Source: a virus. From it: 23,008 bases of DNA. A program made the translations under genes and the position numbers. This document shows, in pieces, positions 11,978-17,446 of this stretch; the stretch's first letter is position 1, and every line of letters starts with the position of its first letter. The stretch lies in IMG/VR virus record IMGVR_UViG_3300001827_000107, positions 1 through 23,008 of that record; one strand, 5' to 3'. Under the pieces are notes generated by a model that did no database searches, had not been told where the DNA came from, and saw nothing but the letters and a program-made list of their open reading frames with translations.

Positions 11978-12316
11978 TTAATTACCTCTTATTCCGGCTT
12001 GAATAACTGTGAATGTAGCGGTCCCGCCAGTATATGAGGTGACGTTTAACCGGATCGCTGTTATAGGGAATGCATAATTCCCGTCGGCGTCGGCTGTTTC
12101 GCCCGCGACTACTGAATTAGGGAACCATGTGGCGGTCCCTGCGTCGAAAGAGGGATCAAATACGTCATCAAACGTGTGCTCGACCGTGTAAGTCAAGGTG
12201 GCGCCTGCGGATAGATCAACTGCGAAGCCCACGTTAAACGGGCTGATATGCAGGTTCAGAGGGATGGGCGAAGTGGCGCCTGCCGCGCGGAGGGTCTTTC
12301 GTTTGGGTCTAGCCAT
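11978..12316 (-). CDS. Small beta-rich virion protein, 112 aa
   Basis: A short basic N-terminus (MARPKRKTLRAAG) is followed by a beta-strand-rich body, ISPFNVGFAVDLSAGATLTY, then VEHTFDDVFDPSFDAGTATW and a C-terminal RLNVTSYTGGTATFTVIQAG. The sequence has the look of small decoration-type or minor structural proteins that I have seen in marine phages. ATG at 12316 follows AGGAG with six bases between. It is the first tail-side gene after the homing endonuclease, so its transcription depends on read-through past the capsid terminator or on the promoter-like region before the endonuclease. Function is inferred only as structural. Confidence 0.6.
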   Translation of the reverse strand: MARPKRKTLRAAGATSPIPLNLHISPFNVGFAVDLSAGATLTYTVEHTFDDVFDPSFDAGTATWFPNSVVAGETADADGNYAFPITAIRLNVTSYTGGTATFTVIQAGIRGN

Positions 12317-12358: not shown

Positions 12359-13840
12359 TTACCCAGTTGATTTGTCAATAAAAACCCATTTCTTTTTGCC
12401 ACAATCGTATATCCGGCGAGCCCCTATAGCATAAGTGATGTCCTGCTCGGTTTGAGGGCTATGGTCGGGGTCAAACCCTATAGGTACTTGGTGCTCAATA
12501 ATTCTTTGAGGTAGGGCTCGGCGTTGGTAATGTGACTTAGGTTTCAGCCCTAAAATCTTAGACCATACTTGATAATCTGGCAGGGTTTCTTGGTCTAAGG
12601 AGAACCCCAAAGCCCGATACATAGCCCCTGAAAAATACCGATTATCACTAAACGATTTTACTTCAATTGGGCGCTCTTCTTTGAGGAACGCTTTGAATAG
12701 TTTAGAAGCCCCTCCAGCTACAGGCAGGCGGGTGGCGTAGCGTGATAACGTCCAAGTACTGTTCTTGGCCCCTACTCCTCGGTCGTTTATACCAAATGAG
12801 AATCGCATGCATGCCACCATTTTCTCCTTGTAGAATAAGGCGTAGTTGGAACCTCCCCCTGCTCCGCCCTGTGGGTGGTATTTTTCGAAAAAGGCTTTGG
12901 CCTCTTTAGGCCCTACTTTTCGAACTTCGCACTTTCGGGCCATAATACGGCCCTTCATCTTCCCTATTGCTGCTCTTAGCAGCCTTTTCAATACATGGCT
13001 ACGCTCAAGCCACTCAGACTCATACATAGTGACCACCCTGACCCCCTGCGTTTGGGCAGCTTTGTACTTGTCATAGTGCTTGTGTTTGTTAGCCTTTTCA
13101 TCCTCTTTATCCGTGTGGCTGTGCCAGTACATCCCACAATACTCTATGGCCAAATCATGCTCAGGCAGATAAATGCCCAGCTCTTTGGGGGCGACGAGGG
13201 TGCGGTTGCGCGCCTCAGCCTTTGTAAATATCGACATGAATTTGTAGATGGCGTCTTCTTGTTGGGATTTCATATGGTTACAGGGGGAGCAGGCCACTTT
13301 ACCTGTCAAATGGTTAGTTGGCGTCTGCTCAAAATCCCCATGGGTAGGGCAAGTTATAACCACTTTTTTATGTGACTTTTCATATACCGCCTTTGTGTAA
13401 TCCCATCTGTCCCCCCACACACCCTTCGCCTTAAATATAAAATCTGAAGTACTGCCTGACTGTTTTGCCACCATCTGGAGGGTCCCACACAAAGGGCAAC
13501 CCTTTCCTTGAATATGGTTGGTGGGGCTTTGCTGGAACTCGCCATGCTTAGGGCATGTTATGGTTAATGGCGTGTGGGCGTTGACATATTTTGCCTTTTT
13601 ATAAGAGTAGTAGCCTGTGAACTTTAAGGTAGCCGCTTCTATAAAAGATTTTTGGTCAGAGTAAGACCTCCTTTTATTAGTAGTGTGCTTATAAGCCCTC
13701 ATAGCATCTTCTCGGGTGCACTCCTTACATTTGGCTATTGAGGTAAACCTAGGGGCTATATGCCCCCTGGCACAAGGGACCCCCGTAAAATAATGCGTTA
13801 ATCCTGCGGCTTTGGCTTGTTGCCTGCTTATTTTTTCCAT
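12359..13840 (-). CDS. Free-standing VSR/EDxHD-type homing endonuclease with zinc-ribbon repeats, 493 aa
   Basis: Several parts can be read. Residues about 10-41 form an N-terminal Cys/His region (C23, H27, C38, C41). Two zinc-ribbon repeats follow: TITCPKHGEFQQSPTNHI with C115/C118, and VITCPTHGDFEQTPTNHL with C184/C187, of the type found repeated in phage homing nucleases (DUF723-like, from memory). Residues about 195-280 are the nuclease core: LGIYLPEHDLAIEYCGMYWH, then KHYDKYKAAQTQGVRVVTMY and ESEW. About 305-426 is a second C-terminal domain (FFEKYHPQGG, AGGASKLFKAF, SFSDNRYFSGAMYRALGF). Relatives of the VSR-like family usually have LDIYIP; here the Asp is Gly222 (codon GGC), which may weaken catalysis. 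Two counted lines have 42% GC against 58% in a capsid line. It is bounded by its own promoter-like region and a terminator. It probably promotes its own spread into related phages. Confidence 0.82.
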   Translation of the reverse strand: MEKISRQQAKAAGLTHYFTGVPCARGHIAPRFTSIAKCKECTREDAMRAYKHTTNKRRSYSDQKSFIEAATLKFTGYYSYKKAKYVNAHTPLTITCPKHGEFQQSPTNHIQGKGCPLCGTLQMVAKQSGSTSDFIFKAKGVWGDRWDYTKAVYEKSHKKVVITCPTHGDFEQTPTNHLTGKVACSPCNHMKSQQEDAIYKFMSIFTKAEARNRTLVAPKELGIYLPEHDLAIEYCGMYWHSHTDKEDEKANKHKHYDKYKAAQTQGVRVVTMYESEWLERSHVLKRLLRAAIGKMKGRIMARKCEVRKVGPKEAKAFFEKYHPQGGAGGGSNYALFYKEKMVACMRFSFGINDRGVGAKNSTWTLSRYATRLPVAGGASKLFKAFLKEERPIEVKSFSDNRYFSGAMYRALGFSLDQETLPDYQVWSKILGLKPKSHYQRRALPQRIIEHQVPIGFDPDHSPQTEQDITYAIGARRIYDCGKKKWVFIDKSTG

Positions 13841-13943: not shown

Positions 13944-14900
13944 TTATGCGCCTTCTGAACCAAAGATGCCCAGAGGGTCAGACCAACCAAAGCTGTAACG
14001 TTCTCTGGCTTTGTACTTCATGTTTCCTGTGTCGAAGTCACCATCAGTTTTTGTCTGCATTGCCACACGGACAAAGTGCTTCAAACCATCAGGTACATCA
14101 GTTGTCAGGAACCAAGCATCTGCATCGGTCAAGTAGTGGTTTACTGCAAACCCCTGAGGGATCACCCCCATACTCTTGATGGCGTTGATGTCGTTTGGCG
14201 CAAAGGTGGTGACCGCTGACAAGGACGTGCGTAGTGTAGTGCTCATCAAGCGCTCTGCTACAAACATCAGGTCAGTAGGGATGATCAACTTTTTAGGCTT
14301 TGCTGCGATCAACAACCCGCGCTCATCTGTCCAGTTGGAGATCTGAATTACTGAGGCTTCCAAGGAGGTCTCATTCAAATCGGCTGGAGTTGTTAGGGAG
14401 TTCTGGTTCACTCCGCCACCTACTAAAGGGTGCCCTGTGCGCGAGCCTGCTGAGTTAAAACCAAACAATGAGCGCCCATCGCCCCCACGGTAAGCAGCTA
14501 CAGTACCGTCAAACCCGTTGTTCAGGATGTTGGCGGCCATAACTTGCTTGGTGTGGGCCATAGAGCGGGCTAGCGCTTTGACATAACGCTTACCCACGCT
14601 TGCGTAAAGGTTGTCCTCCATCGCTTCCTCGGTTATCGCGAAACCTAGTGCAATGGTCTTGTGGTTGTATCGAGAGGCGTATGCTTCTTGAGCTTCGTCG
14701 TAGCTAACCGCTGCGCCCTCTGCTTTTTCCAAAGCAGCGCCAAAGTTAGAAAGCTTCAACTCTTCTTCAAAAGAGCGATTTGACTTCTCTGTTACGAAAA
14801 TCTCTTTGTGCTCTTCGGCGTACGTTTTGTACTCCTGGCCAAAAAGTGCGTGCAACCCGGGAATGAGTTGCTTAAGTTCTTGTGCGCGTGAAATAGCCAT
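13944..14900 (-). CDS. Major capsid protein, 318 aa
   Basis: The sequence has features I associate with phage major head subunits of the Mu gpT-like/HK97-fold type: KSNRSFEEELKLSNFGAALE near residue 40, then AVSYDEAQEAYASRYNHKTI, LGFAITEEAMEDNLY and VKALARSMAHTKQVMAANIL. The C-terminal part has PKKLIIPTDLMFVAERLM and ends ARERYSFGWSDPLGIFGSEG. ATG at 14900 follows AAGGGGGA, one of the stronger ribosome binding sites here, as expected for the most abundant virion protein. The gene is immediately followed by an intrinsic terminator, which fits a highly expressed gene that ends the head operon. No N-terminal delta domain or protease gene typical of HK97 maturation is obvious. Confidence 0.82.
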   Translation of the reverse strand: MAISRAQELKQLIPGLHALFGQEYKTYAEEHKEIFVTEKSNRSFEEELKLSNFGAALEKAEGAAVSYDEAQEAYASRYNHKTIALGFAITEEAMEDNLYASVGKRYVKALARSMAHTKQVMAANILNNGFDGTVAAYRGGDGRSLFGFNSAGSRTGHPLVGGGVNQNSLTTPADLNETSLEASVIQISNWTDERGLLIAAKPKKLIIPTDLMFVAERLMSTTLRTSLSAVTTFAPNDINAIKSMGVIPQGFAVNHYLTDADAWFLTTDVPDGLKHFVRVAMQTKTDGDFDTGNMKYKARERYSFGWSDPLGIFGSEGA

Positions 14901-14912
14901 AATTTATCCCCC

Positions 14913-15533
14913 TTATAGGCCAACAGCATTAGTCAGGCTGTGGTAGCCTGGGTTGAATTTGACCAGCACGTCTGGGAAAGCGTCGTCAATCGGCGAAACC
15001 GCTGCCACAATGCGGAACGCCGCGGTTGTAGTAACAGTAGTGGACTCCAATGCACTTGTTGACAGCCCGGTAGTCACGCTACCCGTGCTGGTGCTTTGCG
15101 CAGCGGCGAAGAAAGTGTTTGCGCCTATATCAGACTGATCAATCGCCCCGTCCAACTGAGCTTGGAACAAAACGTTGGGGTCATCAATTACGTACGCTTT
15201 AATAGCGCCTCCATCAGCAGCAACTGTGCCGCTTGGGTAGTATTGGCTATGCACCACTTGGTTGGCGGAGTTAACATACTCACAACCTACAAACACACCT
15301 ATTGACCCTGTCAAGGTAGTGCCTGTGGGTAGGGCGTTAGTTGTTCCGTCAGCACCTGTAGCGGTGGACAAAGCAATGTAGCCGTCCGCGCCGATATGCA
15401 CGACTTGGCCTTTAAAGATATTAGTTGCCTCCCCAGCTGGGTCAATAAGATATTCACTTACCGCCCCGGCGTAAGGCATACCATCTGCGCGTTTTACGGC
15501 TCGCAGTCCGTATGGTGTTGCAGTAGTAGCCAT
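14913..15533 (-). CDS. Head-associated structural protein (decoration or minor capsid type), 206 aa
   Basis: The N-terminus MATTATPYGLRAVKRADGMP, with FKGQVVHIGADGYIALSTA, IGVFVGCEYVN and a C-terminal DVLVKFNPGYHSLTNAVGL, follows a structural protein family common next to or before capsid genes in marine phages. It is beta-rich and Ala/Thr/Gly-rich. ATG at 15533 follows GGGAG at about six bases, a strong site, so it is probably made in large amounts. The capsid gene starts 12 bases after its stop. A decoration or head-stabilising role is the best guess, with a minor capsid subunit as the alternative. Confidence 0.65.
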   Translation of the reverse strand: MATTATPYGLRAVKRADGMPYAGAVSEYLIDPAGEATNIFKGQVVHIGADGYIALSTATGADGTTNALPTGTTLTGSIGVFVGCEYVNSANQVVHSQYYPSGTVAADGGAIKAYVIDDPNVLFQAQLDGAIDQSDIGANTFFAAAQSTSTGSVTTGLSTSALESTTVTTTAAFRIVAAVSPIDDAFPDVLVKFNPGYHSLTNAVGL

Positions 15534-16016: not shown

Positions 16017-17117
16017 TTACGATTCCTTGTTAAATTTCAGTTTTTGTAGTGCGTATTCTTTTAGGGACACCCCCAGAGTCTCGGCCATAGCGACTTCAGA
16101 ACGTGTTAAACTCACTTTCTTAGGCGACGTGGATCGAGTTACGGGTGCGACCGCTGACGTTCGTTTAGGGCGACTCTGGGGTTTTGGTTGGGGCGCAGTA
16201 GTGACTTCTACGTCATCTTCTAAGCCCTCATCCGCAAACCATTCTGAATCGGGGAACGCTGATCTAACTCGCTTATCAATCGTTTCATAGTACTCATCTG
16301 AAGATGGGTCTACACCACGCTTAACTAGCTCATTGTGCACTCCGGTAGCGTACTGGGTCATTGTCGGGTCAGCCTGAAACCATTGGTTCCTTTGGTGCCA
16401 CTTCAACGCCCTAGGATCTGGGGCTGGAGGGTTATTAACCCTTTGTACACTATCCATGCCCGTTTGTAAAGTGGTTTCTTCGGGCTCGTCAAAAACAGGC
16501 GCTTTTAACGTCGATAGGTTTACTCGGGCCTCTACCATAGCTTCTTGCGCTTGAACAAGCGCCTCAGTGTCCCCCGACAAATGCGCATCGGCAAACGCTT
16601 TTTTGGCTGCTTCGTACTGCGCTTGCGCTTTACCCTTGATGGCCTCAAACGATTCTGTAGACGCGTGCTTGAATTTACCGCGCAAGGCTTCCAGCTCTTG
16701 GCGGGCTTTTTGGGCTATCGCTAAAGCTGCCTCTTTTTGGCGCAGGGCTTCTTCTTTCTCGCGGCGCTGGTCGTGCCACCCCCGAGACAGCTTTTTGATT
16801 CGCTTGCGCACCTGCTCTGAGCTGTATTTGTCTAGCTCCTCCTCAGTAGGAGGGTCAAAATCCTTAATCGGCTCTTTGCCACGGTCCTCCTCCGGCGTGT
16901 CATCCTCCACGGCGATGTCCAAATCGTCATCTCCCACCCCAGGCCCTTGGGATTTTTCTACATTAGTAGAGGGGGTGCGCGCCTCCATTCCTTCGGTTTC
17001 AACTTCCACATCCGCCTCTTCCGGCTCCGCGGCTTCTTCAGGAAAAGCCCTAGCGATCGCCTCTCGGGCGTCAATGTCTTCTTGACTCAATTCTTCATTG
17101 TTTGCGCGAGTGTTCAT
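16017..17117 (-). CDS. Probable scaffold protein, 366 aa
   Basis: Several features fit a phage scaffold: an acidic, disordered N-terminus (about residues 1-100, many Glu/Asp, e.g. EEAAEPEEADVEVETEGME), a long coiled coil at roughly 115-205 (RREKEEALRQKEAALAIAQK, AIKGKAQAQYEAAKKAFADA), a Trp-containing middle (LKWHQRNQWFQADPTMTQYA) and a basic C-terminus (RPKRTSAVAPVTRSTSPKKV). The basic end would bind the capsid shell. ATG at 17117 overlaps the co-chaperonin stop as ATGA and has AAGGAG seven bases before it. Position between portal and capsid genes matches a scaffold. No protease signature is present, so it is not a fused protease-scaffold. Confidence 0.75.
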   Translation of the reverse strand: MNTRANNEELSQEDIDAREAIARAFPEEAAEPEEADVEVETEGMEARTPSTNVEKSQGPGVGDDDLDIAVEDDTPEEDRGKEPIKDFDPPTEEELDKYSSEQVRKRIKKLSRGWHDQRREKEEALRQKEAALAIAQKARQELEALRGKFKHASTESFEAIKGKAQAQYEAAKKAFADAHLSGDTEALVQAQEAMVEARVNLSTLKAPVFDEPEETTLQTGMDSVQRVNNPPAPDPRALKWHQRNQWFQADPTMTQYATGVHNELVKRGVDPSSDEYYETIDKRVRSAFPDSEWFADEGLEDDVEVTTAPQPKPQSRPKRTSAVAPVTRSTSPKKVSLTRSEVAMAETLGVSLKEYALQKLKFNKES

Positions 17118-17446
17118 CGAGTAACTCCTTCTGGATAAGTGGTAACCGCTTCAACTGCGTCGTCATATATTAATGCATAGCGCTCTCCGTCGACTTTAAA
17201 CTGAGTTCCCGCAAAGCCCCGCGCTACAATATAATCCCCCACCTTGCAAAAAGGCCCGCTGGGAAACCTGGCCTCGTCCTTATATGCGTCGGGGCCAATG
17301 TCTATTACTTTTAGTACGACAGAAGTTAACTCCTCGACGTTACGGACAGTATCAGGTTTTATCAAACCTGAAGTCCCAAAAGTTTCTTCGATTTCGGGGA
17401 ACTTGCACAAAATCTTAAACCCAACGGGTTTTGGTAGCTTACTCAA
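17114..17446 (-). CDS. GroES-like co-chaperonin (Cpn10 family), 110 aa
   Basis: The 110-aa chain follows the GroES fold: strand VGFKILCKFPEIEE at residues 8-21, a loop with TSGLIKPDT (25-33) in the position of the GroES mobile loop with its hydrophobic tripeptide (Gly-Leu-Ile here), then VVLKVIDIGPDAYKDEAR, VGDYIVARGFAGTQFKVDGE and the final strand YALIYDDAVEAVT. Family members cap GroEL; phage versions such as T4 gp31 or its analogues adapt the cage for phage capsid folding. The start is TTG at 17446; upstream in the same frame there is no ATG before a stop, and a near-perfect AAGGAGG lies seven bases away. The gene sits between portal and scaffold, so the client is probably the capsid protein. 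No phage GroEL is seen here. Confidence 0.8.
   Translation of the reverse strand: MSKLPKPVGFKILCKFPEIEETFGTSGLIKPDTVRNVEELTSVVLKVIDIGPDAYKDEARFPSGPFCKVGDYIVARGFAGTQFKVDGERYALIYDDAVEAVTTYPEGVTR

Follow-up and report, generated by a model that had tools for sequence, protein, structure and literature searches.

I-Bth0305I of phage 0305phi8-36 (PDB 3R3P) is the prototype of the EDxHD nucleases; it is 266 aa long, has an HTH-like N-terminal part, and lacks a Mom-like domain. The Vsr mismatch endonuclease (1VSR, 1CW0), a single-domain repair enzyme, has the active-site residues E25, D51, H64, H69, and D97 (PMC12907096). In jumbo phages, Mom is fused to REase-fold nucleases, and the fusions have been read as a protect-and-attack, restriction/modification pair (PMC7824862). 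A homing endonuclease gene may also persist past the loss of its activity, as does that of the defunct I-TevIII of phage T4, an intron-borne HNH gene whose activity was abolished by a large deletion (PMC2988022).

The window, i.e., the whole stretch of DNA analyzed here (23,008 bases), is an entire IMG/VR virus record. By its PHROG matches (terminase, portal, major capsid, and fibre), it carries a podovirus-like head and tail module, and the nearest named phages are Planktothrix phage Pag-Yong1, Pelagibacter phage HTVC023P, and phage DSL-LC04. The genes around the capsid locus are as follows.

11978..12316, minus strand: 112-aa gene directly downstream of the homing-endonuclease-like gene, located, by position, where related phages have their minor capsid/cement gene
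12359..13840, minus strand: free-standing homing-endonuclease-like gene, 493 aa, with three zinc modules, a Vsr-type nuclease domain, and a Mom-like GNAT domain
13944..14900, minus strand: major capsid protein gene, directly upstream of the homing-endonuclease-like gene (PHROG 371, E 1.5e-17)

The capsid protein is 63% identical to the annotated capsid protein of Pag-Yong1, and a PHROG search with the 112-aa gene gave no match. The 493-aa protein matches PHROG 559 (E 3.4e-91) and the homing endonucleases of PHROG 3339 (E 1.5e-69); both this long match and the site downstream of the capsid gene place it in the capsid-linked phage HEG group (PHROG 559/3339). The homing endonuclease of Caulobacter phage GB2A (gp084c) and its kin are 46% identical to the window protein over 88% of the protein; gp084c likewise lies directly after the capsid gene, but keeps Asp at the catalytic site. 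No second copy of the gene was found in the window's own record. Elsewhere in the window, a 110-aa gene with a TTG start (17114-17446, minus strand) resembles a GroES-type co-chaperonin, which is annotated at the matching place in Pag-Yong1, HTVC023P, and DSL-LC04.

Domain architecture of the protein

Profile searches and the predicted structure divide the protein into five parts.

13661..13840, minus strand: probable zinc module 1, residues 1–60, with C23, H27, C38, and C41 (PHROG 1081 match to residues 1–60; candidate ligands present)
13481..13645, minus strand: zinc module 2, DUF723/CapR-like, residues 66–120, with C96, H99, C115, and C118 (Pfam DUF723, E 2.4e-6, above the cut-off)
13277..13447, minus strand: zinc module 3, residues 132–188, with C164, H167, C184, and C187 (second DUF723 stretch; conserved Cys/His columns)
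12968..13270, minus strand: Vsr/EDxHD-type nuclease domain, residues about 191–291 (profile, Foldseek, and Z scores)
12362..12943, minus strand: C-terminal Mom-like GNAT-fold domain, residues 300–493 (Foldseek, Z, and Pfam in relatives)

The placement of the nuclease in the VSR/EDxHD family, proposed in the first-pass annotation from the sequence, is borne out by profile and structure. The family profile finds the I-Bth0305I crystal chain 3R3P (E 6.8e-6), which a single-sequence search of PDB did not find; 3R3P is also the first Foldseek match of the predicted nuclease domain (E 7.0e-4) and aligns with it at Z 10.2 and rmsd 2.8 over 92 residues. Comparison with Vsr (1VSR, 1CW0) gives Z of 9.9–10.7, the highest value over 109 residues. 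Pfam Vsr is matched by 5 of 41 family members. The window protein shares with I-Bth0305I the Vsr-like fold and the phage homing context, and with Vsr the fold and the D-x-H spacing.

The predicted C-terminal domain has phage Mu Mom (8bv8) as its first Foldseek match (E 1.7e-5) and aligns with Mom at Z 12.6 over 157 residues, N-acetyltransferases being equal on Z. The Pfam Mom family is matched by 5/41 family members (best 1.7e-4), the window protein not among them; Pfam and NCBIfam leave the domain at 12362-12943 (minus strand) unnamed in this protein. The domain aligns weakly with Mu Mom in hhalign (E 0.13), the invariant R367 falling on Mom R111 and the near-invariant D399 on Mom D149 (241-aa numbering), two of the residues needed for Mom activity. 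Judging by the predicted folds, the protein joins zinc modules and a Vsr-type nuclease to a Mom-like domain. At its core, this architecture has precedents, since fusions of Mom-like GNAT domains to REase-fold nucleases are already known from jumbo phages (PMC7824862); unlike them, the window protein is capsid-linked, mobile in distribution, equipped with zinc modules, and has Gly in the active site.

Gly222 and the catalytic column

The earlier reading of residue 222 as Gly, encoded by GGC one base away from GAC, is correct, and ORF 12359-13840 (minus strand) is open for 493 codons. Residue 222 and the main conserved acidic and histidine residues around it are encoded as follows.

13256..13258, minus strand: E195, intact, the first-helix Glu equivalent to Vsr E25; Glu in 130/134 relatives
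13175..13177, minus strand: codon 222, GGC, encoding Gly where the catalytic Asp is otherwise conserved (138/138 unselected relatives)
13142..13144, minus strand: E233, on the strand beside residue 222, intact; Glu in 139/139 relatives
13121..13123, minus strand: H240, as distant from residue 222 as Vsr H69 from D51, intact; His in 140/140 relatives

Column 222 corresponds to the Asp that binds metal in the Vsr/EDxHD nuclease fold, equivalent to Vsr D51, since four lines of evidence agree: close relatives, a wider sample, I-Bth0305I, and the Vsr geometry. Asp is present in all 60 close relatives of the alignment and throughout the wider survey of 138 distinct nuclease domains, which were retrieved with patterns that left out column 222; the rule of three sets the upper bound on the frequency of other residues at about 2%. 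Wild-type I-Bth0305I, the characterized enzyme with which an alignment had been proposed, carries Asp in this column. The spacing of residues 222, 235, and 240 (13 and 18 residues) equals that of Vsr D51, H64, and H69 (13 and 18). In the predicted structure, residue 222 stands where the first strand (221–225) of a pair begins, facing E233 on the adjacent strand (230–235). The rest of the core is intact, as had been noted: E233 and H240 of IEYCGMYWHS are kept, and so is K258, which is Lys in 139/139 relatives of the unselected survey.

The name EDxHD fits this protein in part. The fold is Vsr-like, the Glu and His occupy the same positions as in I-Bth0305I (E195 on its Glu, and H240; profile probability 95%), and the column of the first Asp had been recognized correctly by the first-pass annotation; the position of the last Asp, however, is His255 here and His in 132/139 relatives. 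The Asp of I-Bth0305I opposite His255 is probably the last D of the motif, by comparison with Vsr D97. Going by these alignments, the nuclease family as a whole departs from the strict EDxHD pattern, whereas Gly222 sets the window protein apart from I-Bth0305I and from Vsr, in which Asp51 is present.

At the positions aligned with residues 222 and 240, the 3R3P chain has Ala twice, as against Asp and His in the phage gene (L377). Since it differs from the phage gene at both catalytic residues, 3R3P is unfit as a wild-type active site in alignments; the two Ala changes were presumably engineered to disable I-Bth0305I. Compared with L377:1500-2300, the chain also shows one Leu replaced by Met, besides these two.

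Distribution of the family and of Gly

Nearly all close relatives immediately follow the capsid gene, and those more than about 40% identical do so on every contig that includes it (L001–L061). Among the best 80 capsid loci, one besides GB2A carries the gene downstream, though many of the contigs stop less than 1.5 kb past the capsid gene; the majority of related phages appear to lack the gene at this site. A scan of genome contigs yielded 25 relatives, none of them close. Divergence of the gene and of the adjoining capsid gene is nearly uncorrelated (Mantel rho 0.11, as high in 21 of 500 permutations; 33 loci and the window), and in some pairs the capsids are 83–87% identical, the nucleases about 50%. 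Because one site is kept while the gene exchanges between phages, the pattern points to homing, and such a sporadic, capsid-linked distribution is as expected for a mobile homing element.

The gene upstream of the capsid gene (14913-15533, minus strand) closely resembles its counterpart in a few relatives (L001, L017, L049) but has little similarity to that of others whose capsids are just as close, which suggests mosaic exchange around the capsid gene.

Motif scans covered 2.9 million viral contigs, the window's own record being left out. The local motif with an Asp codon was found in at least 120 stretches, and with any Gly codon in one sequence, L066, which was again the sole find when the second base of the codon could be C, G, or T. 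There, an open frame (L066:1501-3036) has Gly, encoded by GGT, at the same catalytic column. The L066 protein is distant (34% identical to the window protein) and looks intact; given this low identity, its Gly most likely arose independently. The family comprises at least 599 stretches in the viral collection, i.e., at least many hundreds of members in IMG/VR, and because it is so large, one or two changes of Asp to Gly are expected somewhere. Gly222 is real in the record, yet it is also what a large scan turns up.

State of the copy and competing explanations

The reading we favor, with a probability of about 0.6, is that the window carries a recently inactivated allele of a homing element, with the nuclease dead or crippled and the reading frame not yet lost. 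The gene would be a mobile, free-standing one of the homing-endonuclease type, inserted in a podovirus-like phage between the major capsid gene and its neighbor. The encoded protein would bind DNA through the three zinc modules and cut it with the Vsr-type nuclease domain, with the Mom-like GNAT domain at the C-terminus. A single A-to-G transition would then have turned the Asp that holds the catalytic metal (Vsr D51 position) into Gly, leaving a protein that should still fold and bind DNA, but would cut poorly or not at all. The position of residue 222 suggests loss of cleavage; against this, Gly might be tolerated, as the distant, intact-looking L066 protein also has it. Like I-TevIII, the gene would have outlived the activity of its product, but through a different kind of lesion.

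The first-pass suggestion that the nuclease was disabled recently is reasonable. Among columns at least 95% conserved in 45 relatives, the window protein departs at three, D222G, C262A, and L269V; most close relatives show no departures there, A262 is found in other family members, and V269 is rare. All candidate zinc ligands and all conserved C-terminal residues are present. As an old loss followed by free drift would have cost far more conserved residues, the loss is probably recent. The terminal branch of the window protein is long (0.84 changes per site). The ratio of nuclease to C-terminal divergence is unremarkable (rank 23 of 32), which, with so long a branch, also speaks for recency: the nuclease domain has not diverged faster than the remainder of the protein, and a test for relaxed constraint limited to this domain found none.

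The first alternative is that sequencing or assembly introduced the Gly codon by error, or that a minor variant entered the consensus, the real population having Asp and an active nuclease. A one-base transition would be enough, the rest of the nuclease domain is intact, and the base is known from one IMG/VR record, a metagenome consensus with no relative above 59% identity. On the other hand, codon 222 lies in no homopolymer, and other signs of error are absent: the 493-codon frame and the neighboring genes are open. Error rates in assembled contigs also make a hit on this particular codon unlikely a priori. We regard an error as unlikely, though a serious enough prospect that the base itself is best called probably real.

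Alternatively, the nuclease may be dead and the gene kept by selection, either because the Mom-like domain modifies or protects DNA, or because the CapR-like zinc modules occupy or repress the capsid locus. The Mom-like domain is complete, and protection of phage DNA has been proposed for fusions of Mom with a REase-fold nuclease (PMC7824862). CapR is a capsid repressor that evolved from the DNA-binding domains of HEGs (PMC10448857), and the human Vsr-like FASTKD4 works without cleavage (PMC11879112). However, among 32 C-terminal domains that of the window copy is the least conserved, whereas special retention would predict the reverse. Synonymous sites are saturated, because the nearest relative is 58–59% identical. 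The earlier proposal that the gene is kept for another reason is thus possible insofar as the intact Mom-like domain allows it; nothing here favors selection, and we consider this explanation improbable.

Another proposal of the first-pass annotation, a natural variant that still cuts and binds the metal through another residue or water, fared worse and is very doubtful. The independent Gly of L066 speaks for it. A compensating acidic residue was sought in the nuclease domain and none was found: the only unusual one, D229, lies in the inter-strand turn and is shared by a relative (L052) that keeps the normal Asp, while D235, near the Gly of L066, is also common among Asp-bearing relatives. Least probable, and hardly to be expected, is an immunity allele, i.e., a nuclease-dead protein, retained for its Mom-like and CapR-like parts, that binds the capsid-gene junction, modifies or occupies it, and so shields the phage against active homing relatives that other phages carry at this site.

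If the base is real, the recently inactivated allele would be a homing nuclease knocked out by nature at its catalytic site and encountered before decay of the frame, a stage that is predicted by models of the homing life cycle and is rarely seen; the functions of the nuclease and the Mom-like domain could then be told apart. More generally, a widespread capsid-linked element that combines zinc modules with Vsr-type and Mom-like domains bears on many genes now called "hypothetical" or "HNH endonuclease."
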